This document shows positions 1,525 through 63,279 of a stretch of DNA of 64,000 nt, piece after piece (within the stretch, counting starts at the first letter, position 1; each line of letters begins with the position of its first letter). The stretch covers positions 289,988 to 353,987 of the forward strand of contig BDDD01000433.1 of the NCBI GenBank assembly GCA_001972305.1, written 5' to 3'. The notes beneath the pieces were generated by a model that was not told the origin of the DNA, did no database searches, and worked only from the letters and a program-made list of their open reading frames with translations. The position numbers and the translations under genes are program-made. The stretch is from Cephalotus follicularis (Eukaryota; Streptophyta; Magnoliopsida; Oxalidales; Cephalotaceae).

Positions 1525-1660
1525 GGAGCAGCCGACTGTAAAGAGAAACAGTCGACAAGAGCCTTAATAGAACCAGCCGACTGTTAAGAGAAATAGCCGA
1601 CTGGACCGTCGGCAGAAGCAGTCAACTGTTGTGGGAAGACAGTCGACTACCATGCTGTCT
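1525..1660. repeat. CAGTCGACTG palindrome cluster in LTR D
   Basis: Six or seven words of the form CAGYCGACTG or close variants lie about 20-25 bases apart (for example GCCGACTGT near 1532, ACAGTCGACA near 1549, AGTCGACTA near 1641). The cluster starts about 150 bases inside the LTR, the same position as the first cluster in LTRs A, F and H. Confidence 0.8.
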
Positions 1661-11039: not shown

Positions 11040-11260
11040 AAACAGTCGACTGTTACAAAGCACCAGCCGACTGGGGAAGCTTGGCAGTCGACTAATCACA
11101 AGGGCTATTCGACTACACAAAACAGACTGCAGGCAGTTGACTGTCACTTGGATCCAGTCGACTACTCATCCCAAGACAGTCGACTGTGTTCATATGGCAG
11201 TCGACTGCACATCCAATCCAGCCGACTGTCCACAAGAACACCCGACTGTTCAGGATGACA
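11040..11260. repeat. CAGTCGACTG palindrome cluster in LTR B
   Basis: About ten words of the type CAGTCGACTG, CAGCCGACTG or CAGTTGACTG lie 15-30 bases apart. Measured from the sense start of the LTR (12398) the cluster lies 1.14-1.36 kb in, the same place as in I, B2 and F. Confidence 0.85.
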
Positions 11261-17954: not shown

Positions 17955-18164
17955 TGTAACACCCCTAGACGGCGGGAGTCATCACAGGTCATAATTGTAA
18001 CGCCCGGTATTTTCCTGAATGTAATATTTCAATTTGTGATGTAACCTTGGACTTGAATTAATGAGAATGTTGAGATTTTGAACTCAAAAGATGCTTAAAA
18101 ACCCTAATTATGGTTTTGTGAATGGAATGTGGGTGTTAAACTTAAAAACGACGCTATTTTGAGG

Positions 18165-18300
18165 TAAAGACATCTATGGAACCGAGATGCACGTGAATGC
18201 ATGGACAAGCACGTCGATGTAAGGAGAAGACATCGACACCTTCTGGTGAAAAAGGAAAAGACATCGACGTCTAAGGAAGACGTCAATACCTTTTACAAGA
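18165..18300. repeat. GACGTCGACGTC palindrome cluster 1, 5' LTR of A
   Basis: Words such as GACATCGACACC, GACATCGACGTCT and GACGTCAATACC lie about 20-30 bases apart, 170-300 bases inside the LTR. The matching cluster of the 3' LTR (24520-24680) has one more unit, so unit number has changed since insertion. Confidence 0.8.
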
Positions 18301-19039
18301 ATGTCTGTGACATTATAAACTGACAGAGTAACGTGTAGAGGGAAGGATTTAGGATCCATGCAGGTGCCTTGAGGCACGGGAAGGAGACGTGTTGATCATG
18401 CACGATGGCCTCCTGACCTGCATGACTGAAGAAAGATGAGGAAGGTAACAAGTGTTGCCATGCATGGAGCCTGCAAAAGAAAGAGGGAAAGAAAACAAAA
18501 GGAAAAATGCAGAGTCTGGGAAAGGGAGAGGGAGCACGAGAGTGCTCATTGAATACCAGGAGAAAGAGGACGGTGGAGCGACCTACATAAGAACAACCCT
18601 CCCCATCTCTCTCTCTCGTTTAAAACACCAAAGGAAACAAAGAGAGGAAAACCAGTGAGTGTGAGAGCCACCATTGTTGAGCTTACTTGGAGCTAGAAAT
18701 TGGAGCTCGTGGGTTGCAGTTGCTGAGGGGATCTTGGAACTGCTGTGACAAGAACCTGGGAACTCAAAGGGGTGGACTTTCTAGTTCCTAACTTGGGACA
18801 ACAAGGTAGGGTAAAGTGATAATCTTATACATGCATTTTGGGTTTTTAGTTAGTGAATAACATGATGAATTGCATGTTAATGGTTGAATTGTGATTTTAG
18901 ACTTGTTATAGTGTTTACTGTTATATACGGAGTTAGCATGCATGTGTAAATTAAATGGATATTGAACTGGGTTATGTATGGATGATTTTGATAATGGCTG
19001 CTGTGTTAAAAACTATGGAGAAAACGTTCTGGGTTGGAT

Positions 19040-19470
19040 AAACGTCGACGTCTACCTGAAGACGTCGATGTCTTCATGTTCGTATGAAGAGGACATCGGT
19101 GTTTGAGTAAAAGCATCAACGCCTTTTCTGGGTAATGATAGAACTGCGATGTTTATTGTAGATGGCAAAGTAACCACTCGGGATTGCGCGTTTGTTTACG
19201 AATTGACGTTCTGGTTACATACTATGATAAGCAATAGCTTTTCTTACGCCTTGAGAGGTTAAGTTTCGACTATATGAGGATCTAGAGACTGGATTCTTCC
19301 CTCCAGAATCCAGACTCGCGCACTGATACCTTCTGGTATCATAAAGACATCGATGTCTTTGGAAATACATCGACGTCTTTGACCCCAAAACGCCTGGGAA
19401 TAACTGAACATAGGATCGACGCCTTAGGGAAAAGACGTCGACGCCTTATGAATAGACATCGACGCCTATG
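19040..19470. repeat. GACGTCGACGTC palindrome cluster 2, 5' LTR of A
   Basis: At least eight words including ACGTCGACGTCT, GACGTCGATGTC, GACATCGACGCC and GACGTCGACGCC occur in two sub-clusters (19043-19130 and 19340-19465). Their flavour is the same as that of cluster 1 in this LTR. Confidence 0.8.
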
Positions 19471-20390
19471 TCCCTGTTTAATGGAATTTCACTCGAATGG
19501 GACTTGCTAGACCCAAAACGACTCTAGGAACGATCCTAGATGCATTCTGAGCATATGTTTGCATTATTACTGTGATTGCATTATGGTTGATTTCTAAATA
19601 GTGTTAACCATTTTGAAAAGCTTGCATGATTTTTATAATCATTATTGTGCGAAAATGTATATTTGTCGACATATGAATATATATATTTTTTCGAAATGAC
19701 TAGGGAAAGTATTTTCCAATGACGGAGAAATGTTTGAAAGGATTGATTATGAAATCAAAAGTATTGTGCAAAAATGTATATTTGTCAACATATGAATTTA
19801 TATATTTTTGAAATGATTGGGGAAGTGTTTCCAAAGACGGAGAAATGTTTCAAAAGATTGTTTATACAATCAAATGTATTGTTTAAGTTTTATAACTTAT
19901 CACAACTTGTGAATGGAGTAAAATATTTTAAACAAATATATCTGATCAAGTAATTATATTTTATTTCTTGACTTGTACTATGCAATGCTTGTGCTTGTTG
20001 ATTATTAGCCGCTGTGCTTATAACTTGTTGATTACTCAGCCGCTGTGCTGGTAACTTGCTGTTGGTTTAGCCGCCACGCTAAACAACATACGGAGGACTT
20101 GCTCCAAAACCGTTCGCAAACGGAGATGGGGTAAGAGTGCATGACGTTGGGGCCAGGAGGTGGCGATGGTTATGACGACTTGCTTGTCTGGTTCCTTTTG
20201 GGACATACATATTGCTTGTGTTGATATAACTCATGAGGTTATACTTGTATCGTGATCATGCATATATTTTTATATATGTATATACGGAGATATAATTATT
20301 GTGAAAATTACATGTCATATTGCATCATAATGCATTCATTCATGATACCCATTACCATATGACTCAAACTGTATTTATAAGTTTATTCAC

Positions 20391-20415
20391 TTAGCCGAGT
20401 GAGGACAAAGGCTAA
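20391..20415 (+). other. Conserved TTAGCC/GGCTAA hairpin, 5' LTR of A
   Basis: TTAGCC and GGCTAA are separated by GAGTGAGGACAAA. The identical hairpin occurs at 26773-26797 (3' LTR of A), 43462-43486 (F) and, one base pair shorter, 31702-31725 (D), each 370-430 bases from the LTR end. Confidence 0.65.
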
Positions 20416-20818
20416 CCCCTACTGTAATAGTTTGACGAAGTAGATTTGACATGGAGCATGCGCGGAGACTTAAAGAGAAGACTGAGTAGTTTCTGTTGTT
20501 TTCTTGTATTGGGTTAATGAACATTGATCATGTTAATTTGGATTGTTGTAACAAAGGTTATTTTGTTATCTCGTACTGTATGTTTTTCACGCTCCATTTT
20601 TGGGCGATCGACAATGAGGTTGGGTTTCTGTTATAAACTTGTTGAGCATCACGTAGTATGGGATGCGTGATGTATGTTTAAATTCGGCTCATCTATGTTA
20701 TTGCTTCCGCTATTGAAGGTTTTTATTTATTGGTAAATTTGCATGAGTTGGATTATATTATGTTGATTGTCTTACCGCTTATATGTTGTCTTAAAATGGA
20801 AAACGGGGTGTGACAACG

Positions 20819-20830
20819 TGGTATCAGAGC
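20819..20830 (+). other. Primer-binding site of element A
   Basis: TGGTATCAGAGC, complementary to plant initiator-Met tRNA, starts three bases after the 5' LTR end (20815). It fixes the plus sense of A. Confidence 0.93.
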
Positions 20831-20928
20831 ATATTCCATATATGCTTAGCTAGGATACTTTCCTTGGCAATCAATAAATTGTTTTCCTAAAGTCATGACT
20901 AACCGTCATCCCTCTTATAGGAAACAAT

Positions 20929-21540
20929 ATGGACAGAAGAGGAAGAGCTAAGGCTGTTGAGGGGAGTGCTCCTCAGGGAACAAGTGAAGAGAGAGATTCG
21001 CTGGGTCGAATGGCTGACTACTTTCAACAGCAGATGGCTGTGGATGCGGCCAACCTAGAAGACATGCGACGATGGTACACAGATCGTGTAAATGACCGTT
21101 TCCATCGACATGTGGTTGCTAATACCACGCGCCTGGAAGAAATACGGCAGCTATGTATTGAAACACAGCAAGCTAAACGGACTAGGCCAGCTCCACCAGA
21201 GTGGCAAGATGGAGACTCTTCAAGCAAGTCATCAAAGAACAGTTCTCAGCAAACGGCCGCTAAGGGAGCTTTGAGTCAAGAAGGTGATATAGGGTCTAGA
21301 GCTTGCTATCACTGTGGTCGTAAGGGCCACTTACGGAAAAATTGCTGGAGGATGCATGGACTGTGTTTCAGGTGTGGGGCACCTGGTCATTTAGTGAAGC
21401 ACTGTCCAAAGAGTCCTGCTACGGCGCCTACGGGGCCGATGAGCAATAGCGATGCCGCAACTGGACCTTCCCAGCGGGGGGGGCAAGGGCAAGGGCATCA
21501 TGAGAGGTACTATTTTCACTCTTACTTGCATCATACTTGA
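20929..21540 (+). pseudogene. Element A gag remnant with two zinc knuckles
   Basis: An open frame of 203 codons. Residues 126-139 (CYHCGRKGHLRKNC) and 146-159 (CFRCGAPGHLVKHC) are CCHC knuckles, which in Gypsy gag bind genomic RNA. The N-terminal 120 residues are charged and Ser-rich, with no recognisable capsid domain, so only part of a gag is present. The start codon lies 8 bases after CCTCTTATAG, which resembles a plant 3' splice site with CTAAC upstream. It is a fossil fragment, and whether the short protein is made is unknown. Confidence 0.8.
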
Positions 21541-21742
21541 TCATAATGCCTTTCATTGGTTAACCATATTGTGGCCATAGTTAAATGGATGTTAAGCTGG
21601 ATGTTTGGGGCCAACTAATGAGCAAGAGAATGATGATTTTCTGTACCATACTAGGGGATGGTTATACACATGCGTAGGCTAGTATGGGACCACACACATA
21701 CTTAGTGAACTTCTAGAACCCGGATAACATAACCAAAAGAGT

Positions 21743-24310
21743 ATGAAATGTATCTCTCAGATAGTGGTTCACAGTAATGATTCGAGGGTGTTTTCCAATC
21801 TTGATTTGAGATCAGGTTATCACCTGTTGAGGGTGAGGGAAGGAAATATTGAGAAGACTGCCTTTCGGACAAGATACGGTCACTACGAAATCCTAGAGAT
21901 GCCTTTTGGTGTCACCAATGCACCGACTGCGTTCATGTCATTGATGAACGATGTGTTTCGATCGTACCTGGACCAGTTTGTCGTTGTGCTTATTGACGAC
22001 GTACTTGTATGCTCAAGGAGTGTGGAAGAGCATGCTTGCCACCCGAGGTTGGCTCTTCAGATTCTCCGAGAGCACCAGTTGTATGCCAAATTCAGTAAGT
22101 GTGAATTTTGGCTTGACCGTGTGATCTTTCTTGGTCACATTGTATCTGGAGAGGGTTTGCCGGTGGATCCGTCGAAGACAGAGGTGGTGCAAGATTGGCC
22201 ACAGCCAAAGAATGTGACGGAGGTACGCAGTTTTTTTGGCTTGGCAGGCTATTACCGAAGGTTTATTCATAACTTTTCAAGGATATCCGAGCCCTTGACT
22301 AGACTGACCCAGAAGACCACCTTGTTTGTCTGGGATGAAGATTGTGAAGCTAGTTTTCGCGAACTGAAGGATCGGTTGGTTTCCGCTCCTATCTTGGCAT
22401 TACCTGAGGGTAATGAGGGCTTTGCAGTCTATAGTGATGCATCGGGTAAGGGCTTGGGCTGCGTGCTAATACAGCGAGGAAAGGTGATTGCTTATGCTTC
22501 TAGGAAGCTGAAGTTGTACGAAGAAAACTACCCAACTCATGACCTTGAACTTGCAGCTATTATTTTCGCCCTTCATAAGTGGAGGCACTATCTTTACGTG
22601 GCGCAGTTTGAGATCTTTACCGATCGTAAAAGCTTAAGTTACCTGTTCTGTCAGGATACACTGAACATGAGACAGCGTAGGTGGGTAGAGTTCTTTAATG
22701 ATTATGACTGCAGTATCCAGTACCACTCAGGGAAAGCGAACCTAGTCGCTGATGCCTTGAGCCGCAAGGCTATGGTTTCCAGTACAATGGTGTCGCAATG
22801 GAAGATGTTGGAAGACTTCCAAGAATGGTCTCCGTTCAACCAATCACCGGGGATCTTCCTAGCTGACATGCGAGTACATCCAGTGTTTCTTGATCACATC
22901 AGAGATGCACAACCACATGATCTGGAGTTGCAGCGGATTCGGGAGAACCTAGACTCGGAATCCGAATTTAGCGTGCATGCTGATGGTATTTTGAGATATC
23001 GGGGACGTGTATGTCTTCCGAGTGAACCGAGACTGAAGGATGAGTTACTCCGCGGGGCTCATAAATCTCTGTACAGTATCCATCCTGGTAGCACCAAGAT
23101 GTACCAAGATATGAAGAAAACTTATTGGTGGCCCGGTATGAAGCGCGAGATTGCTGAATATGTCGCGAAGTGTTTGACTTGCCAGAGGGTCAAGGCCGAG
23201 CACCATAGACCTGCGGGACTGTTACAGTCATTACCAGTGGCGGAGTGGAAATGGGAACACATCACGATGGACTTTGTTTCTTGATTTCCACTAACGAGGC
23301 ATCCTCATAATGCTGTGTGGGTTATTGTTGATAGACTCACCAAATCAGCACACTTCTTGCCCACACATGTCACTGATTCTGCGAGCAAGTTGGCCCGACT
23401 ATATGTGAAGGAGATTGTGAGACTGAACGGTGTTCCGGTGAGCATTGTTTGCGATAGGGATTCGATCTTCACTTCCAACTTCTGGAAGAGATTTCAGGCA
23501 GCCTTCGGAACAAGATTGAATCTCAGTACTGCTTTCCACCCTCAGACAGACGGACAGTCAGAGCGTACCATCCACACCTTGGAGGACATGCTTCAGGCTT
23601 GTGTGATTGATTTTGGCAGAACCTGGGAAGACCATATCCCTCTAATAGAGTTTTCTTATAACAATAGCTATCACTCGAGTATTGGTATGGCTCCATACGA
23701 GGCACTGTATGGGAGAAAGTGTAGGTCATCTGTCTGCTGGGACGAGGTTGGTAAACGACCATTACTTGGGTCAGATTTGGTGGAGGAGACTTCGGAGAAA
23801 GTCAAGTTCATCAAAGAGAAGTTGCTAGTAGCGCAGAGTCGGCAGAAGAGCTATGCTGACAGTGTGAAGAGAAGGCCTTTAACCTTCAATGTCGGAGATC
23901 ACGTGTTCTTGAAGGTATCTCCGTGGAAAAAGGTGCAAAGATTTAGGAAAAAGGGCAAGCTAGAGACGCGCTATATTGGTCCTTTTGAGATTCTGGAGAG
24001 GGTTGGGGAGGTAGCTTATCAGCTAGCCTTGACTCCAACATTGTCGAGTGTACATGATGACTTCCATATATCGATGATACGAGGGTATATCCGAGATACA
24101 TCACATGTCTTGGATTATGACTCGGTTACGATGAGGGAGGATCTTTCCTGCGAGGAGTAGCCCGTAAGAATCTTGGATTGGAAGACACAAGTATTGAGGA
24201 ACCGAACCATTCAGATGGTAAAGGTTAAGTGGCAATTTCATCGGCCAGATAAGGCAACTTGGGAACGTGAGGATGACATCCGAGAAAGTTACCCGAATTT
24301 GTTTTAGTAT
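21743..24310 (+). pseudogene. Element A pol region: RT, RNase H, integrase, chromodomain-like tail
   Basis: Visible parts in order: the later part of reverse transcriptase ([39 protein letters not shown] with the catalytic aspartates), RNase H ([32 protein letters not shown]), the integrase HHCC finger ([28 protein letters not shown]), the integrase core ([33 protein letters not shown]), a C-terminal module (FLKVSPWKKV, KLETRYIGPFEILERVGEVA) and a chromodomain-like tail near 24190-24306 (ATWEREDDIRESYPNLF). No protease is seen and the start of RT is absent. The region is broken. Confidence 0.93.
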
Positions 24311-24340
24311 AGTGTTAATTTAGAGGAAGAAATTTCTCGA

Positions 24341-24352
24341 AAGAGGGGTGGA
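24341..24352 (+). other. Polypurine tract of element A
   Basis: AAGAGGGGTGGA lies directly before the 3' LTR start (TGTAACGCCCGG at 24353). Confidence 0.9.
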
Positions 24353-27197
24353 TGTAACGCCCGGTATTTACCTGAATTTAATATTTCGATTTGTGATGTA
24401 ACCTTGAACTTGAATTAATGAGAATGTTGAGATTTTGAACTCAAAAGATGCTTACAAACCCTAATTATGGTTTTGGGAATGGAATGTGGGTGTTAAACTT
24501 AAAAACGGTGTTGTTTTGAGGTAAACGCGTCGACGTCTTTGGAAAGACGTGGACTTCTGTGGAACCGAGATGCACGTGAATGCATGGACATGCACGTCGA
24601 TGTAAGGAGAAGACATCGACACCTTCTGGTGAAAAAGGAAAAGACATCGACGTCTAAGGAAGACGTCGATGCCTTTTAAAAGAATGTCTGTCACGTTATA
24701 AACTGACAGAGTAACGTGCCGAGGGAAGGATTTAGGATCCATGCAGGCACCATGAGGCACGGGAAGGAGACGTGTTGATCATGCACGATGGCCTCCTGAC
24801 CTGCATGGCTGAAGAAAGATGAGGAAGGTAACAAGTGTTGCCATGGATGGAGCCTGCAAAAGAAAGAGGGAAAGAAAACTAAAGGAAAAATGCAGAGTCT
24901 GGGAAAGGGAGAGGGAGCACGAGAGTGCTCATTGAATACCAGGAGAAAAAGGACGGTGGAGCGACCTGCATAAGAACAACCCTCCCCATCTCTCTCTCTC
25001 GTTTAAAACACCAAAGGAAACAAAGAGAGGAAAACCAGTGACTGTGAGAGCCACCATTGTTGAGCTTAGTTGGAGCTAGAGATTGGAGCTCGTGGGTTGC
25101 AGTTCCTGAGGGGATCTTGGAGCTGCTGTGACAAGAACCTGGGAACTAAAAGGGGTGGACTTTCCAGTTCCTAACTTGGGACAACAAGGTAGGGGAAAGT
25201 GATAATCGTATACATGCATTTTGGGTTTTAAGTTAGTGAATAACATGATGAATTGCATGTTAATGGTTGAATTGTGATTTTGGACTTGTTATGGTGTTTA
25301 CTGTGATATACGGAGTTAGCATGCATGTGTAAATTACATGGATATTGAACTGGGTTATGTATGGATGATTTTGATAATGGCTGCTGTGTTAAAAAATATG
25401 GAGAAACCTTCTGGGTTGGATAAACGTCGACGTCTACCTAAAGACGTCGATGTCTTCATGTTCGTACGAAAAGGACATCGATGTTTGAGTAAAATCATCG
25501 ATGCCTTTTTTGGGTAATCATAGAACTGCGATGTTTATTGCAGATGGAAAAGTAGCCACTTGGGATTACACGTTTGTTTACGAATTGTCGTTCTGATTAC
25601 ATACTATGATAACCAGTAGATTTTCTTACGCCTTGAGAGGTCAAGTTTCGACTATATGAGGATCTAGAGACTGGATTCTTCCCTCCATAATCCAGACTCG
25701 CGCACTGATACCTTCTGGTATCATAAACACATCGATGTCTTTGGAAAGACATCGACGTCTTTGACCCAAAAATGCCTGGGAATAACTGAACATAGGATCG
25801 ACGCCTTAGGGAAAAGACGTCGACGCCTTAGGGATAGACATCGACGCCTATGTCCCTGTTTAATGGAATTTCACTCGAATGGGACCCGCTAGACCCGAAA
25901 CGACTCTAGGAACGATCCTAGATGCATTCTGAGCATATGTTTGCATTATTACTGTGATTGCATTATGGTTGATTTCTAAATAGTGTTAACCATTTTGAAA
26001 AGCTTGCATGATTTTTATAATCATTATTGTGCGAAAATGTATATTTGTCGACATATGAATATATATATTTTTTCGAAATGACTAGGGAAAGTATTTTCCA
26101 ATGACGGAGAAATGTTTGAAAGGATTGATTATGAAATCAAAAGTATTGTGCAAAAATGTATATTTGTCAACATATGAATTTATATATTTTTGAAATGATT
26201 GGGGAAGTGTTTCCAAAGACGGAGAAATGTTTTAAAAGATTGTTTATACAATCAAATGTATTGTTTAAGTTTTATAACTTATCACAACTTGTGAACGGAG
26301 TAATATATTTTAAACAAATATATGTGATCAAGTAATTATATTTTATTTCTTGACTTGTACTATGCAATGCTTGTGCTTGTTGATTATTAGCCGCTGTGCT
26401 AATAACTTGTTGATTACTCAGCCGCTGTGCTGGTAACTTGCTCTTGGTTTAGCCGCCGCGCTAAACAACATACGGAGGACTTGCTCCAAAACAGTTCGCA
26501 AACGGAGATGGGGTAAGAGTGCATGACGTTGGGGCCAGGAGGTGGTGACGGTTATGACGACTTGCTTGTCTGGTTCCTTTTGGGACATACTTATTGCTTG
26601 TGTTGATATAACTCATGAGGTTATACTTGTATCGTGATCATGCATATATTTTTATATATGTATATACGGAGATATAATTATTGTGATAATTACATGTCAT
26701 ATTGCATCATAATGCATTCATTCATGATACCCATTACCATATGACTCGAACTGTATTTATAAGTTTATTCACTTAGCCGAGTGAGGACAAAGGCTAACCC
26801 CTACTGTAACAGATTGACGGAGTAGATTTGACACGGAGCATGCGCGAAGACTTAAAGAGAAGACTGAGTAGTTTCTGTTGTTTTCTTGTATTGGGTTAAT
26901 GAACATTGATCATGTTAATTTGGATTGTTGTAACAAAGGTTATTTTGTTATCTCGTACTGTATATTTTTCACGCTCCGTTTTTGGGCGATCGACGATGAG
27001 GTTGGGTTTTTGTTATAAACTTGTTGAGCATCACGTAGTATGGGATGCGTGGTGTATGTTTAAATTCGGCTCATTTATGTTATTGCTTCCGCTATTGAAG
27101 GTTTTTATTTATTGGTAAATTTGCATGAGCTGGATTATATTATGTTGATTGCCTTACCGCTTATATGTTGTCTTAAAATGGAAAACGGGGTGTGACA
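24353..27197 (+). repeat. Element A 3' LTR
   Basis: 2845 bases, nearly identical to the 5' LTR. Palindrome clusters lie at 24520-24680, 25420-25520 and 25720-25860. The AAGGTAGGGG box is at 25187-25195 and the TTAGCC/GGCTAA hairpin at 26773-26797. It is followed by target repeat ataat. Confidence 0.95.
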
Positions 27198-28394: not shown

Positions 28395-28595
28395 CAAAAC
28401 AGCCGACTTGGAAAGCTTGGCAGTCGACTAATCACAAGGGCCAGTCGACTACTCAAACCAGAATGCAGGCAGTCGACTATCACTTAGATCCAATCGACTA
28501 CACAACCCAAGACAGTCGATTGTGTTCATATGGCAGTCGACTGTTCATCCAATCCAGCCGACTATCCACAAGAACAGTCGACTGTTCTGGACGAC
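28395..28595. repeat. CAGTCGACTG palindrome cluster in solo LTR B2
   Basis: About nine words of the CAGTCGACTG or CAGCCGACT type, aligned in position with the B cluster at 11040-11260. Individual words differ from B while the centre CGAC is retained. Confidence 0.82.
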
Positions 28596-32095: not shown

Positions 32096-34454
32096 AACCC
32101 TAATTGAACAATCGATCAAACTGAAACCAAAACAAAGCATAGGGCATAAAAGGGTCGAAACGCTAGGGTTACCGTAAACCCTAGAAATGGACTCCAAACA
32201 TAGGCTAACAAGGAAACACACAAAACCATAGCCTAAAGTCCAATCAACCCAAACCCAAGCATCCCTAACCCTAAGGAATGACAAACAAACCATCAAAAGA
32301 AAACCATGGAGGTTCAGCTAGGGGACACACAACCTAGCCCCAACCCACTGCCACATCGCCACAAGGGAGAAGAAGAATAGATTCTTACCAAAGGTGAAGA
32401 CTCCTTCATCCAAGACAAGCTCCCTATACGCTTTATCCCCAAAAGCTCCAAGTTCCTCCTCTACCCACGAAAGGGAAGATCCAAGGATCCAAGCCTAGTG
32501 TTTATCTTACACTAAATCACTATAGATAAAGATAACATGCGGTGTGCAAGTTATATTCACCTATAATGACCTTTGACTGGTGAAAGGAGGGTTTAAAATG
32601 ACTGCAAAAATGAAGCATACATTATTGGCATTGACGCGTAGGCGATAAGCGTCGACGTGTATGTTTGCAGTAGGAAAAACAGAGATTCAGGGAAGAGAGA
32701 GAATGAGGATGTGTGTTATGGTAGCTTTAGTTGCTTTTGTCCTGTAGTCATTAAGTATTTATACTTTGACTTTTTGACTTTCTCTCTCCTAAAAACCCGC
32801 ACATCATCATGTCAAGTCGTCAACACCATGTGACTCATCTTATCTAGGCACCAATGCCAACGATAGGATGAAATAGGCTCCTTGTCTCATTTGTCTTTGC
32901 GTCAATGCTTAAACAACACAACATCGACACGTAAATCTACTGGTTTTTAAAGCGTCTATGCCATGCTCTCTATAATGTTAACGGCCCAACGGTTCAATCC
33001 AGTTATGGCATCAATGCATGCTCTCCATGGCGTCGATGTTTAAAGCTACTGCTTTTGTCAGCGTCAATGCAAGCTGTTCGCGTTAACGCCCAACAACTCA
33101 ACTAGACAAGGCGTCGACGCATGCTCTCCATGGCGTCGACGCCTAAGACAAAGATGACACAATCTCTTCTATTTTTCACAAAACCCTTCGCATAGAATAT
33201 TTCATTGTGGCATTGCATGGATCTAAATCCATCAAATGAATTACTCACCAGTAAAGCAGCATCTTCCCTGATGTTTTCCTTTCACTAAATGATATGTGTC
33301 CCAGCACATATCAACCTGTTCAAAGTCAGGCATGACCCGAAAGCCTGTCGTTCTCTGGTATGATGATAAATTCCAAAAACATCTCAATTTCTGGTATGAC
33401 CACTCTAACAGTAAACCGACTATCAGAGCAACCCCGGTGTGAGCACCAATCACCCCCCAGATCCGTGTATTACCATGTGTATCAATCATGGTCCGAATAG
33501 CCAGTCTCTTTATCTAGTTACCGGCATATGTGTCCTGTTTCCCTTGTCATATTTAGCTCTGATCACAGCCTAGGGTTTGGATTAATGTCTCCCCTTGTAT
33601 TGCTGTGATAACTATGAATCTATTATTGTAGTAAGACTATCGGTAGACCTCCCCCAGGAACCTCTCATTCCTAGTCCACCTATGACTTATCAGGACTTTT
33701 AAGTCTGCAACGTACATAGATAAATAGAGCTGGTCACCCTCAGCCCAGGTGTAATGATCCCCTATTACGCACTGGCTCATATATCTTAATCCAGCTCCCA
33801 CAAGACCCAAAGACAACCCTTTTGCTAGCACCTGGCTAGTGCTGGGGAAGGCAAAAATCAAAGTCAAGCAGTCACCAGACAATGCATGCCAGCCGCTCAA
33901 GTTAAAGGAGACAACAGAGGCTAGACCTGCTAGTCACCATAGACTATACACTACCGAGACCATAGGAATCCTATTGACATTTGGTATTGACTATCCAAAT
34001 AGTTTTCCTATTGGTGGGTCATTTCAGTGTCACGCTCTCTAGCATACACCTCACATTTAGCTTTAGGGATAAACCCAAATGGCTACGAGATAACCATCCT
34101 CCAATGCTAACCCGAGAGCAAGCTTAAGGCAGCAAGTCTTTACGATTCATCAATGGCCCAAAGAAAGTGAACCTATGACTTGGATCATTTGTCATACGGA
34201 GTAAGGATCTCATTCTCATAGCCCTCTCGGCACGAGATCCAACCCTTTGGTTGTGACAGGGTGCTATATGACTTACAGTTAATTACGTATAATTATTTTG
34301 TTCCTTTTGGTTGCTTGGGATGAGCTACATAGCCTTGTCGATAAATGAATATGCACATGAAATATGAATGGAATTCAGAATTGTATTAATTAAGAGTGTA
34401 TATGTACAACCAACAAGCCATATCAGGGCATATAGGGACACCCCTAACCTAACA
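32096..34454 (-). repeat. Element E left LTR, main piece
   Basis: It continues from 1375 after D. The first part matches 45374-45727 of the other LTR. It holds a GCGTCGACGC cluster (32630-33140) and an ATATGTG/CACATAT hairpin (33291-33311). It ends CCTAACA at 34454, where the polypurine tract starts. No open frame in it resembles a known protein. Confidence 0.88.
32630..33140. repeat. GCGTCGACGC palindrome cluster in Copia LTR E
   Basis: Eight or more words such as AAGCGTCGACGTG, GGCGTCGATG, GGCGTCGACGC (twice, about 33117 and 33133) and GCGTCAATGC lie about 40-90 bases apart. The same GTCGAC-centred theme is in the Gypsy LTRs A, H and H2, although E belongs to a different superfamily. Confidence 0.72.
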
Positions 34455-40599: not shown

Positions 40600-40850
40600 G
40601 AGTAAAGCGTCGACGTTTAACTATAGGTGTCGACCGTTTCATTGCATGAAGGAACAAAGCACTTAGCAAGGCATCGACTAACACATAGCAAAACACAGTG
40701 GACATCGTCGACGTTTAAAGGAAGGCGTCGACAGTATCGACATAACTGTGGACGCTAAAACACATGCATGGCGTTTTACAACAGACTTTTCATACACAGG
40801 CGTCGATGCTTACGATAGGCTTCGACGCTTAACGCCTAGAACACAGAACT
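40600..40850. repeat. GCGTCGACG palindrome cluster 2 in LTR H
   Basis: Words such as AAAGCGTCGACGTTTAA, GGTGTCGACCG, CATCGTCGACGTTTAA, GGCGTCGACAG and GGCGTCGATGC. After subtracting F, the cluster lies about 1.0-1.25 kb from the sense start of the LTR. Confidence 0.78.
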
Positions 40851-41369
40851 AGTTACAGAAAATTAGTTGAAAACTATGGCCATAATCCCATTTTCTCTTA
40901 CACATCATGAAACAGTGGTAAGTATAGGTTCTAAAACATGTTTTCTATGCATGTAATTATCAATATATAGATATATCAATGCATGATCTTGTACAACATA
41001 CAAGTTACATATATTAATACCTTAGAAAACATATTTTTCTGGTGTGATAACAATTTGCATAATCATAGACTACAATCCAATTTTCTTTACATAAATCATA
41101 AAATAGTGATAACATGATTTCCTTGCTTCAAATACTGACATAACAATTTAAACATGTAGAAACATGGATAGAAGATTGGATTCAACAGCAGAAATTTTTT
41201 GTAACGCCCGTAATTTTCGTGTACTGTAATTTCACAATGTAATTGTACCTTATTGGTGGAATTAATAAAGTGATGGATTTTTCCGAATTTGATGACGTTT
41301 CCCAAATTATGGTGATGTTTATTTTAATCAATTATATACTTAGAAGTGTGATTACTTGGTAATTATGCT

Positions 41370-41530
41370 GGAGGCAGTCGACTGGTATGGAGGACAAGCC
41401 GACTGGATGGCTGCATATGGGGACAGTCGACTGGTAGGATGAACCAGTCGACTGGCCACTATCGTGACACTTGGCAACAGACTGCCAGGCGAACAGCCGA
41501 CTGCCAGGAAAGGCAGCCGACTGGATCATG
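41370..41530. repeat. CAGTCGACTG palindrome cluster 1 in LTR F
   Basis: Six or seven words (CAGTCGACTGG at about 41374 and 41424, AGCCGACTGG, CCAGTCGACTGG near 41444, CAGCCGACTG twice), 17-28 bases apart, 170-330 bases into the LTR. Confidence 0.85.
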
Positions 41531-42329
41531 CTCTGTTTGCTACATGTGACAGAAATCACATGTTACAACGGAAAGAAGGAAGTGGGTGCCATCTGTATTC
41601 CATGCAGCCGAAGGAAAGGATGTGAGGGACACCTGTGGATCATGCAAACTTCATAGGGCAGAGAAAATCAGACCTGTGAGTGTGTGCATGCATGTGAATG
41701 AGGGAATATGGCTTTGGTGCCATGTGAAGGGGGAAAGGGAGAAAAGAGTCTGCATAAAAACGTCTCACTCATTCCTCTCATCCTGGTACTGTAAAGTTTG
41801 AGAACCAGAGAATATAGTAGAGAGAAAACACAAAGAAAGGAGGAAAGGAGAGTGTTTTCCATTGTTGAAGCTTGGAGCTCAAGGTTGGAGCTGTCCTTGG
41901 AGCAGCTGGGCTTGGAGTTGGAGCTTCTGGGGAGCTCAGAACGTCACTGATTGGAACGCAAAGAGGTGGACTTACAAATTCCTAACTTGGAATCAAAGGT
42001 AGGGGAAGTTGTAATGGTATTTTGAGCTTAAAATTACTACATGCTCTATGATTTGAAACGCCTGGTTATGTGACTTGTAGCTACTGAATTAGGACGTATT
42101 TGCTACTGTCTTTGTGAGCTGTTATGCTTGCTACTGGGAATCAATGTGATTATTGTGCATGCATGTTGAACCTTATATGGTTTTGGCTTGCATGATGAAA
42201 TGAATGTTGGATAAACTGTTATATGGATGATATGACAACCTGTAGTTGTACTTCCTGTCCCTGAGCTTAAGTTATCTGCTTACCATGATCCCTTGGAGTA
42301 GTTAGATCGATTTGCATGCCACTGGTTCG

Positions 42330-42600
42330 CAGAGTAGCCGACTGTCGAAGGAAGACAGTCGACTACTCAATGAGACCAGTCGACTGCCAATGGAAAGCAG
42401 TCAACTGCTCATACTTCATATTGCCTAGAAAATGGTAATCTGGGAATGCTTCTCGTATGGGTGTACTGTAACAGTCGACTGTTGAAGAACAACAACCGAC
42501 TGCCTAATGGACAATCGACTGGCAGAAGGAACCAGTCAACTACTGATACTGCTCGACCCAGAACAGTCGACTGGTAAGGATTCCAGCCGACTGGTTGGAC
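42330..42600. repeat. CAGTCGACTG palindrome cluster 2 in LTR F
   Basis: About twelve words (AGCCGACTG, CAGTCGACTAC, CAGTCGACTGCC, CAGTCAACTG, CAGTCGACTGTT, CAACCGACTG and others), 1.13-1.40 kb into the LTR. Same flavour as cluster 1 of this LTR. Confidence 0.85.
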
Positions 42601-44254
42601 TGCTGTTTGCCTAAAACAATGCGAAACGATCCCGATTCCTACTAGGATGCATTTGAGCATTTGTATGAATTGCATATGTACTGTTTGACTACCTGGTTGT
42701 ATTGTTTGTACTCGAATTATGATTTCTAATGTGTTGTTACTTTAGAAATGCATATGTGAATTGAAACTGCTATTTTGAGTACAAAACGAATATTGATATC
42801 GTATTTTCAAATATCTTTGGAAAGCGATTTCCACTACTGTACTGTTTAAAAGTGTTTTCTATTGAAAATGCCTATTTTCAAATGTTGTAACTTTTGGAAA
42901 CATTTTGGAAAACAACTGCCTGTTGTGGATCTAAACGATCACTACTGTCCTGTTTACTGTACTGCTACTGCTTGAATTCACTGTTTGTTTTGTGAATTGT
43001 TATGTGTTTGTCCTTGAGCCACTAGTTGCAAGGCGGAGGCTGCCAGCGCCGGCTAGTGGTAGGGTTGACCTAGGGGCCAGGAGCATGGCTAGGTAACTCA
43101 CTGTACTGTTGCCTTGCTCGATTGCCTGGAGCAGGGACTGGAGTGGGAGTGTAGCGTGGGGCCAGGAGTTGGCGGCGCTACACATACTGCCTGTTGTTGT
43201 TGTTGTCCTATGTGGACATCCTGTACTGTCTGTTGGTCCTTCTCGGACATTACTGTGTTTGTTGATGTAGCCCTGGCCGGGTTACTACTGTACTGTTTCT
43301 GCATACATATATTTTCTTATATATGTACCACTGATATTTACCGTACTGTTAAATATATATTTTTTCGTATATATATAAACTGGAAATTCTACTGCACTGC
43401 ATCATTCATGCATTCATATCATGACATGCATTTAATTTTAATCCCGAACTGCTTTTATGACTTAGCCGAGTGAGGACAAAGGCTAACCCCCTACTTTACA
43501 GATTGATGTTGTGGACCTGTTGGATTGACATGGACGAAGAGCAAGCGTTATGTTGTTTTTAGTTTTACTTCTCCTGTTATGTAATAAACTGAATTGTTTA
43601 AGGGTTTCTGATGTATCATTCGTATGGATGTAACTTGTGATGGATTTAAACTTGTACTATGATCACGTTCCGTTCTGTGGGCGATTAACACTGATGGACT
43701 TGTCGAGTAGCGTGTAGTTTGGGATGCACGTTACGGATTATAGCTTATGAATTTATGCTTCCGCAACTGACAGCTTGTTCAGGGTTTTAAATTTTATGGG
43801 TTTTACATGAGCTGTATTTATGTGTTAATTGCCTTTACTGCTTATATGTCATTTCTCTTTGAACGGGGTGTGACATTTTTCCTTCAAGATAAGTTCTAAA
43901 AATCATGATTAAAACAATTGCAACATGTTTATACATAATCTAACAGTTGATACTATAGCATGAAAACAACTTTCGTTCAGAAATTACCTCCAGATAACGC
44001 CAAAAACTATGAAAATCAGTAGAGAGAAGTGACTGGTTCAATTTTGCAAAATATGCAGGTGGCACTTTAAAAAGTGCAGGGATTTTTGTTTTTAAAACGA
44101 TGAATCAGTGGTTTAAAGGTAGAAATCATGAAGTTTATGACTTACCTTACATGAAAATGCGTCCGAACTTGCATAGAAAATCGGATAAACAGATATGGCA
44201 AAAATCTCCCTTTCAAAAAACAACCCACCGTCCAAAACTGATATGGAAAAAGAC

Positions 44255-44400
44255 GACCAAGGCGTCGACGGTATACTAAAAACGTCGACGGTTAGGTATT
44301 CAAAGCAGAAAGCGTTAAATTCACACGTATGTGCATTGACGTGGTTCACAACGCCAAAGCATCAATGGTTCTGACGAAGGCGTTGGTGCTTTGTGCCCCA
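44255..44400. repeat. GCGTCGACGG palindrome cluster 1 in LTR H
   Basis: AAGGCGTCGACGGT, AACGTCGACGGTT, AAAGCATCAATGG and AAGGCGTTGGTGCTTT lie 120-265 bases from the sense start of LTR H (44520). The layout is identical in H2 (51835-51980). Confidence 0.75.
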
Positions 44401-50944: not shown

Positions 50945-51090
50945 AAAGCGTCGACGGTTAACTTTAACACACTACCCAAGCGTCGACGGTTAAAGGCATA
51001 AAAAGACAAAGCGCTGAGTAAAGCGTCGACCAAACACAGCATAAAGCAGTACAAAGCGGCGACACTCAAAAGACAAGCGTCGGCGGTTTG
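50945..51090. repeat. GCGTCGACGG palindrome cluster 2 in H2
   Basis: AAAGCGTCGACGGTTAA, AGCGTCGACGGTTAA, AAAGCGTCGACC and AAGCGTCGGCGG, 1.0-1.15 kb from the sense start (52099). Same place and flavour as in H. Confidence 0.8.
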
Positions 51091-51834: not shown

Positions 51835-51980
51835 CGACTAAAGCGTCGACAATTTACTGAAAGCGTCGACGTTTAAGCCTTAATTTACAAAACGCGTCAA
51901 AGTCACACATTTTGGCGTTAACGTATCTGAAAGCACCCAAAGCGTCGGCGGTTCTAATAAGAGCGTCGGCGCTTTGTGCC
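51835..51980. repeat. GCGTCGACG palindrome cluster 1 in H2
   Basis: AAAGCGTCGACAAT, AAAGCGTCGACGTTTAA, AAAGCGTCGGCGGTT and AGAGCGTCGGCGCTTT, 120-265 bases from the sense LTR start. Confidence 0.8.
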
Positions 51981-52099: not shown

Positions 52100-54202
52100 T
52101 ATGCCATATACTAGGATCGATTCATACGCCTCTATCATACATAACAGTTCCATAAATCCACCTCATGGGATTTATTCATAACATAGAGAGACGTCGTAGA
52201 CTAATCACACCGGTACGAAAGTGTCATGTCCCCGTGCCAGGCCTATGACATGCCTATCATACGCCCCATAGGTGGGTACAAACACTCGGTATTTTATCAT
52301 TTCGAAGACATTGATTAATCATAATCAATTTAAAATCCATGCAAACATGCCTTTTTCGAAACGCAACATCAACTAATTTATTTCCACTATAAAGAGATGA
52401 TGATAACATAGTTCATAACATACCACAGCATAAGTATAAAGTCAGGAACATTCAATTTGTAAAATGTCAAAACAGACATTATTTCAGAACATATCAACAT
52501 CGTAAAACATAACCAAGTTCTTAAAACCGATGAAATATAACATACAAATGAATATCCATTCATAATACAAAACTAAATTTTGTGAGATAAAATCGAAGAG
52601 AGTGTCAAAGAGCAGAATATCCGTATCTTATGCACTTACAGAAAAGACTTACGAAAAGACTGATTAATTTTTAACTGTCCTTTGATGCACAACAATATAA
52701 AAGACATAAAACCATACATATAAGGGTCTGAAAATCATTAAGGGCAAAAAACATATTTATAACAGTGTTTAGGACAGACCCCGATTAAACAGAAATGCAA
52801 ACGGACCAACAAAATTGAAAAACAGAAATTTTCTGGACAAAATAGCTGACTATTACAGAGCTCCAGTCGACTATGGAAGCTTGCCAGTCGACTACCCAAC
52901 AGGGCCAGCCGACTTCCCAAACTGGACTACAGCCAGTCGACTGTGATAGGGGTCCAGTCGACTATGCAAGGCAAAGTAGTCGACTGATCATACAAACAGC
53001 GGACTACACAACATATGATAGCCGTCTGTCCATAAGAACAGCCGACTGTTCTGGATGACAGAACAACATAAACTCTACAATTCTATGCAGAAACCTGTCA
53101 AAACTTCAATAACATTGTACCAGAGGCCCATAAACATGTTTATGTGACATTGTATGGTCCTTTAACAGTAGAAAAACACGACATTAATATAACTTATGTG
53201 ACTAGTGGCTAACTCAAGGAGACAAGGAGTGATTTCTAAACACATTCTTACATGTTTTGATCCAATTTTACTGTCCATTAGCCACTTTCAGTTTCTAAGA
53301 CCAGATTACCACTTATATACAATGCCTAAACATGTTGACAGCCTTATAACCCATGACAGAACATACAAAGATAGGAATCAAAACCACTCTAATTGCCTAT
53401 ATGCATACAAAACCGAATAACAAAGTGGAACAGACCATCACAAAAGGGATTACTAACATGCAATGGTATTACACCCATAGAAACTGTGTGAAGAAACACC
53501 ATAATTTCAATAGTCACTCGGCTTTGCACAGGAACAAAGAGAAGAGAAAATAAAACAATATACAGCCTTCAATTCTGCTAGAAGGAAAAACACAACCCAA
53601 CAGAACAACAAAGGATGAAGATTACATACCACAAACCTGACTTTGATGAAGCAACTTACGCAAGAACAAAACGAACTCCTACTTTGCAGAATCGGCAGTG
53701 ACTTGCAAGAAAGGAGATGATGGCATAACACAAGGGCAAAACCACTCTTAAAATAGAAAAAGGAAGGAATTTCAGGAGAGACAAGGGAACGAGGAAGAAA
53801 ACGCGTGAGGGAGTTAAGAGAGGGAGAGATCATCGGAAGAGACAGAGATAGGAGAGAGAGATGGGTGAGGGAGGGAGAGATACGGGTGAGATAGGAGAGA
53901 GAGAAGAAAGAAATGGAAAGAAAAAAATACGAAAAGAAAAGGAAAAATAAAATAAAATAAGAATTTTGTTTTAATAATTAATTTAAATTTTAACAAAAGG
54001 AAATATAAAACTGATTTTTAAAAATAAAATGGATAAAAGTCGTAATCCATACATATACATACCCACATACTAACATACCCAGAAGTCCAGGCTGGTATCA
54101 GTCAGCCCAAAACACAAAACCCCAAAACAGGGCAAACGGACTTCATAACAAACAAAATTAAAAAGCCCGTAAAAAATGCATACGAACAAACAGGGTATTA
54201 CA
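52100..54202 (-). repeat. Element I left LTR, partial
   Basis: Matches LTR B from the TACTAGAATCGATTCATACGCC block onward: conserved hairpin block (52106-52280), the ATCCGTATCTTA box (52619-52630), a CAGTCGACTG cluster (52840-53060) and a purine-rich tract (53810-53950). The outer edge (TGTAACACCCC) is not present. Confidence 0.82.
52840..53060. repeat. CAGTCGACTG palindrome cluster in LTR I
   Basis: About nine words (CAGTCGACTATG, CAGTCGACTACC, CAGCCGACTT, CCAGTCGACTGTG, AGTCGACTGATC, CAGCCGACTG) lie 1.14-1.36 kb from the sense start at 54202. Confidence 0.83.
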
Positions 54203-56497: not shown

Positions 56498-57666
56498 CGT
56501 TGAAATACTTACAAGGCAACCTTCTAAAGATATATGATATGCGGAAAAATAAACTTACGGAAACAACCATACAACAATTTAAGAACAATTAAATACGTAA
56601 AGAGATATAGAGTTAGAGAGAGTGCAAACACAAATTTTATAGTGGTTCAGCCAATCTCTTTCCTACGTCCACTTTCCCAAGGTAGCACCTTGAGTTTCCA
56701 CTAGAATCCACTAGCACCCATTGATTTTGGATTGCGGGTGAAAATCAAAGAAAAACACCTTAAAAGATTTGGGTTCACTTCCCGTGATAATCCTACTAAG
56801 GGTTCACTCCCCTTGATTATCTCTCTCAGGGTTCACTCACCTTATACAATAAAAGATTGTAAAGATGTTTTACATTGTTTACAATAACCTCTGAAAGGTT
56901 AGATATTGCTAAGTAAGGCTTACAAACAATAGCTCTCTAAGATAGACTTTAAAATACTTGAACCAAGCTTCGATATTGATTTTAAAGGTGTAGGATTGCT
57001 CTTGAGTTGCTTGGAAGAAATGTGTATTGTCTTGTTATCTCTTCTTTGTAATGATACCTCATTTTTGCTTACATAGAGATGCTCCAACGGATCTATTTTT
57101 AAACTTCAAACCAAATCCAGTCGGCTAGATTTTCTTGGCAGTCGGCTGGAGAAGTTGTTGTGCATTTATGATTATAGCCGTTGGCGAAGGCAGTCTGCTG
57201 GATGAACTTGACAGTCGACTGTTTGCCTAAGCAGTCGACGGTTTCCTTGCTTTAGTCGGCTGTTGTGGGAAAATTGGATTTCCCAAAAGCTAATGGTTTA
57301 AATGTGCACTTCTTGACAGTCGGCTGGAGATCCTTGGCAGTCGGCTGTATTGTCATGGCAGTCAGCTGGACCCCTCTTACAGTCGGCTTGATGGAGTGCA
57401 ATTCCAGATTCTGGAATTGTTTGAAATTCCAGTCGGTGGTTAAACCCAGGCAGTCGGCTACTCAACCTAAGCAGTCGGTTGTTCATCATGGCCAGACGAT
57501 TGTTTTTGCCTGAATATGCAACTTTAAACTTTTAAATACTTTGGATACAAAATCAAGTGAGTAGATGATTTTGTAATATATGAAAATATGCATACAAGTA
57601 TTTCATTTTTGTTAATCATCGAAATATCACTCTTTAACACATTTAAAGGGGTGGCAAAAGCCAACA
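56498..57666 (-). repeat. Element K left (3') LTR
   Basis: About 1.17 kb, from GTTGAAATACTTACAAGG to AAGCCAACA. It contains TTTATAGTGGTTC...CTACGTCCAC (56637-56672), a word also found in the LTR of C, and a GTCGAC/GTCGGC cluster (57115-57490). The exact first base is uncertain because the target repeat partner is outside the window. Confidence 0.78.
57115..57490. repeat. CAGTCGGCTG/CAGTCGACTG palindrome cluster in Copia LTR K
   Basis: About fourteen words such as CAGTCGGCTGG, CAGTCGACTG, CAGTCGACGG and CAGTCGGCTA, 20-35 bases apart. In this element the G-containing form CAGTCGGCTG dominates. Confidence 0.82.
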
Positions 57667-62050: not shown

Positions 62051-62460
62051 ATTCTATATCCGTACTGAGGTTTGCTCAGCCGCGTTTTTGTTTTCCATGC
62101 GGCAGGTTTTCAGGGACAGCATGGGCAAGTGTGATGAGAGAGTTACCCTGTGTCAGAGGATCATCTAGGAGTTTGATCTGGTTATGTCTTTAGTGGTGTG
62201 ATGATCGTGTATAGGCCAGTTATCTAAACAGTATTGTGGTTTTTGGATTATGATATTTTGGTTTATGATAAAGTTTTCAGATTATGTTTCAGATTCAGTT
62301 TATGTTTCATGATTATACAAGTTTTAAGATTTTTAGAACCACCACGTATTGATGATGATTAAGATTAAGATCTTGATATGTTTTAGCTCAGTTTTGTGTG
62401 ACACACCGACTCGGAATCGGGGGTGATCCCTCGATCCCGAACTGGGGGTGTTACATTAAT

Positions 62461-63168
62461 ACCAAGGTTTAGGGAAGCTAGAATCCTACTGATAAGCATA
62501 GGATAGGGGAGGTGATTAGGTCTAGATAAAATGTTGTTCACTATGAGATACGGAAGGTTGACAAGAGTCCCATTTTTTATACAAGCTACTAATTTGAGGT
62601 CTCGCTTGGATGGAAGAGTATGCGAGCCCTCTGTAGGCAACAAAGTATTAGTGACAAGCAATAGGAGTATGTCAGTAGCTATGGGCAAATGGCTACTAGT
62701 AACAGTCATAAGTGGATTGATATCGGACCGTTCTAAGCAATTTTCCAAAGCATCGAATTTTTCAATGTCATTAAAGTGAGTGATACCGGTGCATGGAATT
62801 CCTAAAGTTTCAGTAATAAAATCAGGGGTAATTTCAACTGCATTGCCAATAACAAAGGATTTTGCTACACAACTAGTGGTTTTTTCTTGATTAGCATAGA
62901 AATGTTTTACTAACCTAGGGTAAATTAGGTGAGATGAACACAAATAGTCAAACCAACCCAAATGTTCAAGCCAAGACCTAATAGAAGCTATATTGCTAAT
63001 CAAAATCTCTCTATCTAACCATTTTTTGTTGTGGAGCTTTACTGAATTTAGGACGGAATTATACCTCTCTTCATTTTCCTTGGAGGGAAAAAGGTCGTCT
63101 TCAAAATCGATTACTGGATTTGAGCTTCTCTGCTTGGTTCCCATGCTTTTCCTCTTCTTGGATGCCAT
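62461..63168 (-). pseudogene. Element K env-like ORF, N-terminal part
   Basis: The minus-strand frame begins MASKKRKSMGTKQ (basic, Lys-rich) at 63168. It continues with HLGWFDYLCSSHLIYPRLVK, an acidic and hydrophobic mid-part (FVIGNAVEITPDFITETLGI) and a Leu-rich stretch near residues 165-180. This wording resembles the ORF found between pol and the 3' LTR in SIRE/Maximus Copia elements, also catalogued as 'putative plant transposon protein' (family recalled, not searched). No clear signal peptide or transmembrane helix is seen, so 'env-like' reflects position, not proven function. Confidence 0.72.
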
Positions 63169-63279
63169 GGAAATTAGTGGGAGCGAATTTTTGGGGAAGG
63201 TTTAGGGTTTTGACAGTGTTTGGAGAGGAGAGTTTGAGAGAGAGAAAGGGAAAAATCGCATTTATAAAAAACTGAATCG

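Follow-up and report, generated by a model that had tools for sequence, protein, structure and literature searches.

The 64,000-nt window of Cephalotus follicularis DNA from which all evidence presented here derives contains Ty3/gypsy and copia-type retrotransposons whose LTRs carry arrays of GTCGAC-related words. The relevant elements, designated by letters, and their arrays are listed below; J was called H2 in the sequence-only reading that preceded our analysis.

1529..1649, forward strand: cluster 1 of K, 154 nt from the LTR start at 1376
11043..11248, reverse strand: cluster 2 of B (LTR 12398->9558), nine words with gaps of 20-22 and one of 49; cluster 1 is absent
17996..20815, forward strand: 5' LTR of A, a Del/Tekay-like Ty3/gypsy chromovirus, TGTAACGCCC...GGGTGTGACA, followed by the PBS TGGTATCAGAGC
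18165..18300, forward strand: cluster 1 of A, degenerate words of the ACRTCGAYGT type
19042..19465, forward strand: cluster 2 of A, starting 237 nt past the predicted splice donor
24353..27197, forward strand: 3' LTR of A, with clusters at 24527-24672 and 25424-25847
28400..28584, reverse strand: cluster 2 of B2
32628..33142, reverse strand: array of X (copia), GCGTCGACGC words on both sides of a TATA-like TATAAATA at ~32760
40600..40850, reverse strand: cluster 2 of H, SCGTCGACGC words
41200..43875, forward strand: F, a solo LTR inserted into H with the target duplication TTTTT
41375..41523, forward strand: cluster 1 of F, CAGYCGACTG words with a pitch of ~21
42335..42593, forward strand: cluster 2 of F, inside the leader intron predicted from splice sites read by eye (donor ~41999, acceptor ~43501)
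44255..44400, reverse strand: cluster 1 of H, SCGTCGACGC words
50945..51090, reverse strand: cluster 2 of J
51835..51980, reverse strand: cluster 1 of J (LTR start 52099)
52864..53048, reverse strand: cluster 2 of I (LTR start 54202)
57118..57502, reverse strand: LTR array of M (copia-type, Sirevirus-like; LTR start ~57666), mostly CAGCCGACTG words
62456..63201, reverse strand: part 1 of the extra ORF of M, PF20167 (Transposase_32), first ATG ~63169
63288..63358, reverse strand: internal array of M, four words that immediately precede a TATA-like site (by eye) and the extra ORF

The PBS of A is presumably of the Met-tRNA type, and the two LTRs of this element (17996..20815 and 24353-27197) are 95.5% identical. 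Chromodomains (PF00385) follow the integrase in A (24161-24304, E 4.9e-6) and B (12455-12604, E 5.1e-6). H is related to J (72-73% where the two align), and K and N, which ends at 32095, appear to be the two termini of a single LTR that was split by nested insertions and has the target duplication AACCC. The LTR starts of A, B, F, K-N, H, J and I, among them TGTAACGCCC and TGTAATACCC, match at 7-9 of 10 bases, with H lowest, the U3 att TGTAACACCC described as the most common one of Del elements in sorghum and maize (Cruz et al., 2014, PMC4029996). The Ty3 LTRs are 2.1-3.1 kb long, with I truncated, and thus lie within the Del/Tekay range of 1.1-4.4 kb given in the available text of the same report, which likewise places features of long Del LTRs in their 5' and 3' halves. 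That text reports no CpG islands for Del elements of the eudicot group, and the terms palindrom and GTCGAC are absent from its main text.

Within the window, M has no pol-like ORF among ORFs of at least 120 aa, and a gag-like CCHC fragment recognized by eye had no Pfam match. Its extra ORF is split by the solo LTR L and continues at 58771->58340. PPT-like runs are present at 58042, 57986 and 57680 on the minus strand, and imperfect inverted-repeat arms, TTTGTCAATCATCAAA and TTTCGATGATTAACAAA, flank the terminal PPT (by eye). The LTR array of M lies directly upstream of a TATA-like AAAATAG (by eye). The LTR of X extends from ~34450 to ~32455, with approximate borders.

In the window, GTCGAC occurs 49 times against 6.8 expected from dinucleotides, and pairs 20-22 bp apart were observed 14 times but in none of 200 dinucleotide shuffles. 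The clusters described in the sequence-only reading are thus real, and the excess survives the shuffled control, in which GTCGAC had a mean of 6.77 and a maximum of 15. Among 6-mers with at least 20 copies, GTCGAC has the top ratio of observed to expected; compared with an expectation from 5-mers, which themselves share the words, the count is 49 against 30.4. All but three of the copies (46/49) fall inside 17 array intervals of together 4,557 bases, which were drawn post hoc with the words already known. The array words are ~10 bp long and quasi-palindromic, and their spacing is mostly 20-22 bp, which is two helical turns; summed over arrays and including related copies, 57 of 87 neighboring gaps measure 19-22 bp. 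The pitch of ~21 bp rests on these direct spacing counts and not on a period scan, which peaked at 23.6 rather than 21 but from only 22 GTCGAC distances. Each word had been taken to be its own reverse complement, which is true of only 19 of the 102 words (perfect 10-bp palindromes, summed), and of 1 of 13 in M. The commonest variants are polar and point in the same direction within one array; relative to transcription, this polarity in B, B2 and I is opposite to that in F, K, M and J. Sense RYCGAC is contained in 73 of 102 words (summed), which is largely implied by the way the words were picked.

Allowing at most one mismatch to any of 10 reference words, we counted 9 words in the 5' and 11 in the 3' LTR of A, 15 in F, 5 in K-N, 7 in H, 6 in J, 9 in B, 9 in B2 (8 in the cluster), 7 in I and 0 in L. 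On the copia side, the LTR of M contains 10, which lie ~186-550 nt into it, and that of X contains 4, whereas shuffle means were 0.02-0.32 with a maximum of 3. CAG-type words occur in the Ty3 LTRs F, K, B, B2 and I and in copia-type M, GCG-type words in the Ty3 LTRs H and J and in copia X; two word types are thus each present in both superfamilies (Ty1/copia and Ty3/gypsy). Exact GTCGAC is absent from cluster 1 of the A 5' LTR, where only relatives such as ACGTCGATGT were found.

Both clusters are present in five of ten Ty3 LTR copies (A5', A3', F, H and J), cluster 2 alone in three (B, B2 and I) and cluster 1 alone in one (K-N), while L, having no words within one mismatch, has neither; the B 5' LTR (17166-17811) and the left J LTR (45723-46298) were excluded as internally deleted or truncated. 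Cluster 1 starts 216 nt from the LTR start in A5', 175 in A3', 176 in F, 154 in K-N, 230 in H and 128 in J, and the cluster in the LTR of M starts at about 186 nt. Cluster 2 starts at 1047 nt in A5', 1072 in A3', 1136 in F, 1012 in H, 1014 in J, 1151 in B, 1108 in B2 and 1155 in I, a range of 1012-1155 nt. Two clusters at fixed places had been proposed for A, F, H and J, and their starts at 128-230 and 1012-1136 nt agree with this, as do those in B, B2 and I (1108-1155 nt) with the claim that the second cluster has a matching place there. In F, cluster 1 lies upstream of a TATA-like gcataaaaa at ~41752 (by eye). In self-BLAST (E<=1e-10, over 80 nt), no array region of A, F, B or J aligned with that of another of these four. 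The positional agreement may in part reflect common descent of a Del-type LTR and not convergence.

Between B and I, words were identical at 76/90 and 61/70 positions and the rest at 187/283 (84-87% against 66%; p=0.00045 and 0.00024), and words also exceeded the rest between B2 and I (p=0.001 and 8e-5), the four tests not being independent. Words were not significantly better conserved than the rest between H and J (p 0.07-0.26), and no better than spacers between B and B2 (0.90 vs 0.90, 0.89 vs 0.91). The argument from conserved position to function is thus upheld by position and by word conservation between B or B2 and I, but not by the comparison of H with J. At flanking positions of H and J that were not used in picking words, A was found in 12/16 at -6 and 15/16 at -5, and T in 11/16 at +6 and 14/16 at +7, so that the flanks are symmetric around the words.

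The impression that no plant LTR element with such a layout had been described did not hold. The RM boxes of Sirevirus LTRs are high-copy CpG palindromes in the upper LTR half, upstream of the TATA box, with additional copies before the ENV gene, flanks that diverge, and family-specific words around a common core (Bousios et al., 2010, PMC2829016). In the available text of that report they are called Sirevirus-specific, the Vitis box, CGGTCGACCG, has a GTCGAC core, and the CGG-CCG signature, which our CAGYCGACTG words lack, is also absent from the Tnd-1 box, ACAATCGATTGT. M resembles Sireviruses with RM boxes in having at least eight copies in the upper LTR before a TATA-like site, and multiple PPT copies with an inverted repeat at the terminal PPT (by eye); four words also precede its extra ORF, whose PF20167 product would be no more than a possible ENV homologue. 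The arrays described here differ from RM boxes in that LTRs of Ty3/gypsy elements with a chromodomain carry them as well, in their pitch of ~21 bp, and in forming a second cluster inside what is predicted to be a leader intron. We saw no mention of the distance from box to box in the available text of PMC2829016, nor the two-cluster Ty3/gypsy version. Shared word types in LTRs of chromodomain Ty3 elements, the pitch and the second, putatively intronic cluster go beyond what that text describes. Literature searches with the exact word CAGTCGACTG gave no match with a retrotransposon title (titles only), and among the matches listed for palindromic LTR motifs, Cephalotus LTRs, retrotransposons with DREB or cold, and GTCGAC with CBF, no such arrays were described; helical spacing gave no match. 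An IMG/VR scan returned 0 matches, a prokaryote genome scan 13 stretches that were all bacterial by title and included no plant sequence, as expected from what these two collections cover, and translations through the arrays of B and M revealed no related annotated protein.

We consider it rather probable that the clusters are cis-regulatory binding-site arrays that drive retrotransposon transcription, most likely through a host transcription factor. Quasi-palindromic sites two helical turns apart would be bound by a sequence-specific DNA-binding protein, cluster 1 acting as an upstream (U3) enhancer and cluster 2 as an intronic enhancer early in the predicted 5' leader intron, and the Ty3/gypsy arrays would be the counterpart of the Sirevirus RM boxes. 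Binding of a dimeric protein, already suggested from the sequence, would fit quasi-palindromic words with symmetric flanks, and an orientation-independent enhancer would allow the opposite variant polarity of B, B2 and I compared to F, K, M and J. GCCGAC, a frequent variant among the array words, is the classical CRT/DRE core; the conserved CAG/CTG flanks are not known to belong to a DRE. A CBF/DREB-type AP2/ERF protein is a possible, if doubtful, candidate for the factor, because in addition to this variant GTCGAC itself is the core preferred by barley HvCBF2, listed as CRTDREHVCBF2 in PLACE tables (PMC4553201, PMC4222965). That element has the identical 6-bp core but, as tabulated there, is short and without symmetric flanks or a 21-bp array. 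RYCGAC is missing from A-type words such as ACATCGATGT, which counts against a single CBF/DREB factor.

Alternatively, the arrays might act as RNA, their transcripts forming hairpins from which small RNAs and host silencing would arise, which we regard as unlikely. Palindromes in maize Sirevirus LTRs are likewise clustered in LTR control regions, and secondary structure and small-RNA targeting were proposed for this palindrome-rich region (Bousios, 2016, as cited in PMC5311732 and PMC10760457). Folding of ten segments was compared with 60 shuffles each (H, X and A1 were left out), and in the sense strand it reached z -2.9 in K1 and was strong in F1 (-4.7), F2 (-7.2), B (-7.5), I (-5.1), A2 (-5.4) and M_int (-8.8) but near background in the LTR array of M (-1.3), J1 (-1.5) and J2 (-0.6); the antisense strand folded better than shuffles in 10/10 segments (z -2.0 to -9.0). 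The idea that the clusters pair with each other, if taken at the RNA level, thus finds uneven support. Self-complementary words are to some extent stable by their nature, the variant CAGCCGACTG, common in the sense strand, sets C opposite A in the stem, and the clearly better-folding strand varies, being antisense in K, F, the LTR of M and J but sense in B and I.

It appears quite improbable that a protein encoded by the transposable elements, possibly the PF20167 protein of M acting in trans, binds the arrays and counters silencing like VANC. VANC targets of VANDAL elements are arrays of a short motif upstream and in introns that vary between families as here (PMC5735166, PMC10398659), and words precede the start of the extra ORF of M. 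However, VANDAL encodes its own binding protein, and the motif given in these sources, YAGTATTAY, is without a dyad of the kind seen in the array words. Pfam identified PF20167 alone in the extra ORF, the structure prediction for its product was unusable (mean pLDDT 39.5, with 20 of 120 listed relatives aligned), the scanned ORFs of A and B gave gag/pol-type domains only, and among other Ty3 internal parts one scanned ORF, beside I, gave SH3_Tf2-1; the sharing of two word types by both superfamilies also argues against this explanation. Very improbable, finally, is an origin as decayed, functionless 20-21 bp minisatellites: Tandem Repeats Finder reported, among the matches listed, pieces of period 20-21 (1529-1603, 19343-19381, 19415-19467, 42356-42411 and the A3' copies), and words and spacers are equally conserved inside the array between B and B2, but words outlast spacers when B or B2 is compared with I, the different words have a symmetry in common, and spacers mostly hold 0-0.6 bits (up to 1.7 beside a word) compared to 1-2 bits at most positions of the words, which were picked by likeness.

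Returning to the arrays as binding sites for host factors, we tentatively suggest, at somewhat less than even confidence, that arrays of palindromic boxes, rather than being a trait of Sireviruses, are a control module common to unrelated Ty1 and Ty3 elements of one plant, with at least two word types each occurring in both superfamilies, helically phased, and present twice in some Ty3 families, once before the promoter and once within the leader intron. If the bound proteins cooperate on the same side of the helix, changing the pitch by half a turn would be expected to abolish the effect. If such a shared module exists, different elements would have acquired sites for the same small set of host regulators, either by convergence or by exchange. 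To our knowledge, the host regulators that wake plant LTR retrotransposons are known for few elements; since boxes described as Sirevirus-specific recur here in Ty3/gypsy chromoviruses with a tight pitch and at two fixed places, one binding experiment with a single array could name a factor for several element families.

The window is plant DNA dense with nested LTR retrotransposons and contains 49 copies of GTCGAC, compared with 6.8 expected from the dinucleotides of the 64 kb and 30.4 expected from the 5-mers of the hexamer itself. The observed/expected ratio of GTCGAC exceeded that of every other 6-mer present 20 or more times, and the excess persisted against dinucleotide shuffling (mean 6.77, maximum 15 copies, n = 200). 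GTCGAC pairs at a distance of 20–22 bp were found 14 times, but in none of 200 dinucleotide shuffles. When pair distances of the 1,789 6-mers with 15–120 copies were sorted into 3-bp bins, GTCGAC was tied with CAGTCG for the most pairs in a single bin (14 at 20–22 bp), while CGACTG reached 11 pairs and several words, including TATGTT and the low-complexity TCTCTC and AAGAAA, reached 10. All evidence on the arrays, which are rows of ~10-bp quasi-palindromic words with GTCGAC or a related centre, comes from this one 64-kb window with few families and partly related copies, and array borders were drawn post hoc.

LTR borders were derived from TGTAAC/TGTAAT starts and GTGTGACA/GTGTTACA ends, together with target duplications and self-BLAST alignments; for B2, I and X, the outer end of the LTR is either truncated or placed approximately. 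Cluster 1 starts 128–230 nt and cluster 2, inside a predicted leader intron, 1012–1155 nt from the LTR start. Both clusters were present in five of ten Ty3/gypsy LTR copies (A5', A3', F, H and J), cluster 2 without cluster 1 in three (B, B2 and I), cluster 1 without cluster 2 in one (K-N) and neither cluster in one (L). Splice sites and TATA boxes are predictions read by eye: a splice-donor-like GGTA lies 236–570 nt before cluster 2 in A5', A3', F, H, J and B, the LTRs covered by this inspection, and a presumed TATA box lies downstream of cluster 1 in A and F. At about the expected place of cluster 2, the K-N LTR contains other imperfect tandem units with inverted arms (30878–31480; e.g. GGTTACT...AGTAACC and GGCTACT...AGTAGCC), possibly another type of box. 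This LTR is apparently split by nested insertions (~27.6 kb), and 1376–2813 and 30400–32095 resemble the two ends of one LTR (target duplication AACCC). Next to the insertions K-N, X and J lie copies of one repeat (1220–1375, 32095–32453 and 45219–45728), apparently an older sequence that served as their insertion target.

In sense orientation, the arrays consist of a 10-bp word followed by a spacer of ~11 bp, and 57 of 87 gaps between neighbouring words measure 19–22 bp, a count from which A3' was left out and in which B/B2/I and H/J are related and hence not independent copies. A TCGA centre is common to three word types:

CAGYCGACTG: elements F, K and M; mirrored form in B, B2 and I
SCGTCGACGC: elements H, J and X
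ACRTCGAYGT: element A

The assumption that each word is its own reverse complement applied to just 19 of 102 words, the centres of which are TCGA in 56, CCGA in 22 and TCGG in 8 cases. The variants are polar, with CCGA confined to K, F, M and J, and TCGG to B, B2 and I plus one word in A. In the 16 words of H and J, the symmetry extends to bases outside the stretch used for word selection, with A at −6 in 12 and at −5 in 15 words, and T at +6 in 11 and at +7 in 14 words. Element A has a longer near-palindrome, e.g. the tandem unit AAAGACATCGACGTCTTTGG.

Between B and I, words are 84–87% identical (76/90 and 61/70), compared with about two thirds (187/283) outside the words (p = 0.00045 and 0.00024); for B2 and I, the same comparison gave p = 0.001 and 8e-5. 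Words and spacers inside the array were equally conserved between B and B2 (~0.90 each), and H and J differed in the same direction as B and I, but not significantly (p = 0.07–0.26). The evidence that the words may be under purifying selection therefore comes from a single family comparison. Several words differ between A5' and A3'.

Elements A and B are chromoviruses with chromodomains at 24161–24304 and 12455–12604, respectively, and their U3 ends resemble the sequence that is common in Del elements, TGTAACACCC. Words are also present in the Sirevirus-like element M and in the copia element X. The features of M are:

From near 57666, minus strand: copia-type 3' LTR
62386–63201, minus strand: extra ORF with PF20167 domain ('putative plant transposon protein')

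The M LTR contains ten words, and four further words lie directly upstream of the split extra ORF. M additionally has three PPT-like runs, with the terminal PPT within an imperfect inverted repeat. Because pol was not seen in the portion of M within the window, its placement as copia-type rests on non-coding features. The PF20167 ORF had 350 protein matches at E ≤ 0.001, the best of which covered 90% of the query at 88% identity. The best 120 of the 350 were all from Cephalotus follicularis, so that the window stems from this species or a very close relative, and the ORF seems to be highly amplified in Cephalotus. It is broken at 58772–62455 by the solo LTR L (TGTAATATCC...GTTACA, target duplication TTAAT), which is without boxes. 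X has RVT_2 (35319–36170) and integrase domains, and GCG-type words flank its TATA-like box on both sides, within approximate LTR borders. Since CAG-type words occur also in M and GCG-type words also in X, two word types are each present in Ty3 and copia-type elements alike.

The sequence-only reading knew of no described plant LTR element with this layout, which has to be narrowed: palindromic Sirevirus boxes upstream of the TATA box and of the extra gene have been published, e.g. CGGTCGACCG from a Vitis element in Table 3 of Bousios et al. (2010; PMC2829016), and M is alike in layout, although it lacks their CGG-CCG signature. What appears new relative to that paper is the presence of arrays in Ty3 LTRs, their pitch and the cluster in the predicted intron, and we make no wider claim of novelty. 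The motif was termed Sirevirus-specific there, and a PLACE search with it yielded mainly sites of stress-related factors, whereas one common binding factor could not be named (PMC2829016). For Del LTRs, Cruz et al. (2014; PMC4029996) describe CpG islands, but none in their eudicot group. Paired CAGTCGACTG words 9–13 bp apart were also found in bacteria (13 stretches, including four from Sporosarcina), but are probably unrelated to the plant arrays.

We propose that the arrays bind protein at the DNA level, which would account for pitch and word symmetry and would fit two further observations: arrays lie beside presumed promoters in more than one kind of element, and the polarity of the variants is reversed in B, B2 and I. 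A role as RNA hairpins is consistent with the strong folding of the array segments F, B, I, A2 and M_int, as well as of the antisense strands (10/10), but is unlikely, as it leaves unexplained why the sense strands of M_LTR, J1 and J2 fold at close to background level. Regarding a protein that might bind the DNA, GCCGAC, the CRT/DRE core, is a common variant among the words. Together with the listing of GTCGAC as core of barley HvCBF2 in PLACE tables (PMC4553201; PMC4222965), this points to CBF/DREB as candidate, while one single CBF/DREB factor would be hard to reconcile with the A-type words and with the conservation of the outer CAG/CTG. Protein bound to the arrays could possibly loop cluster 1 to cluster 2.
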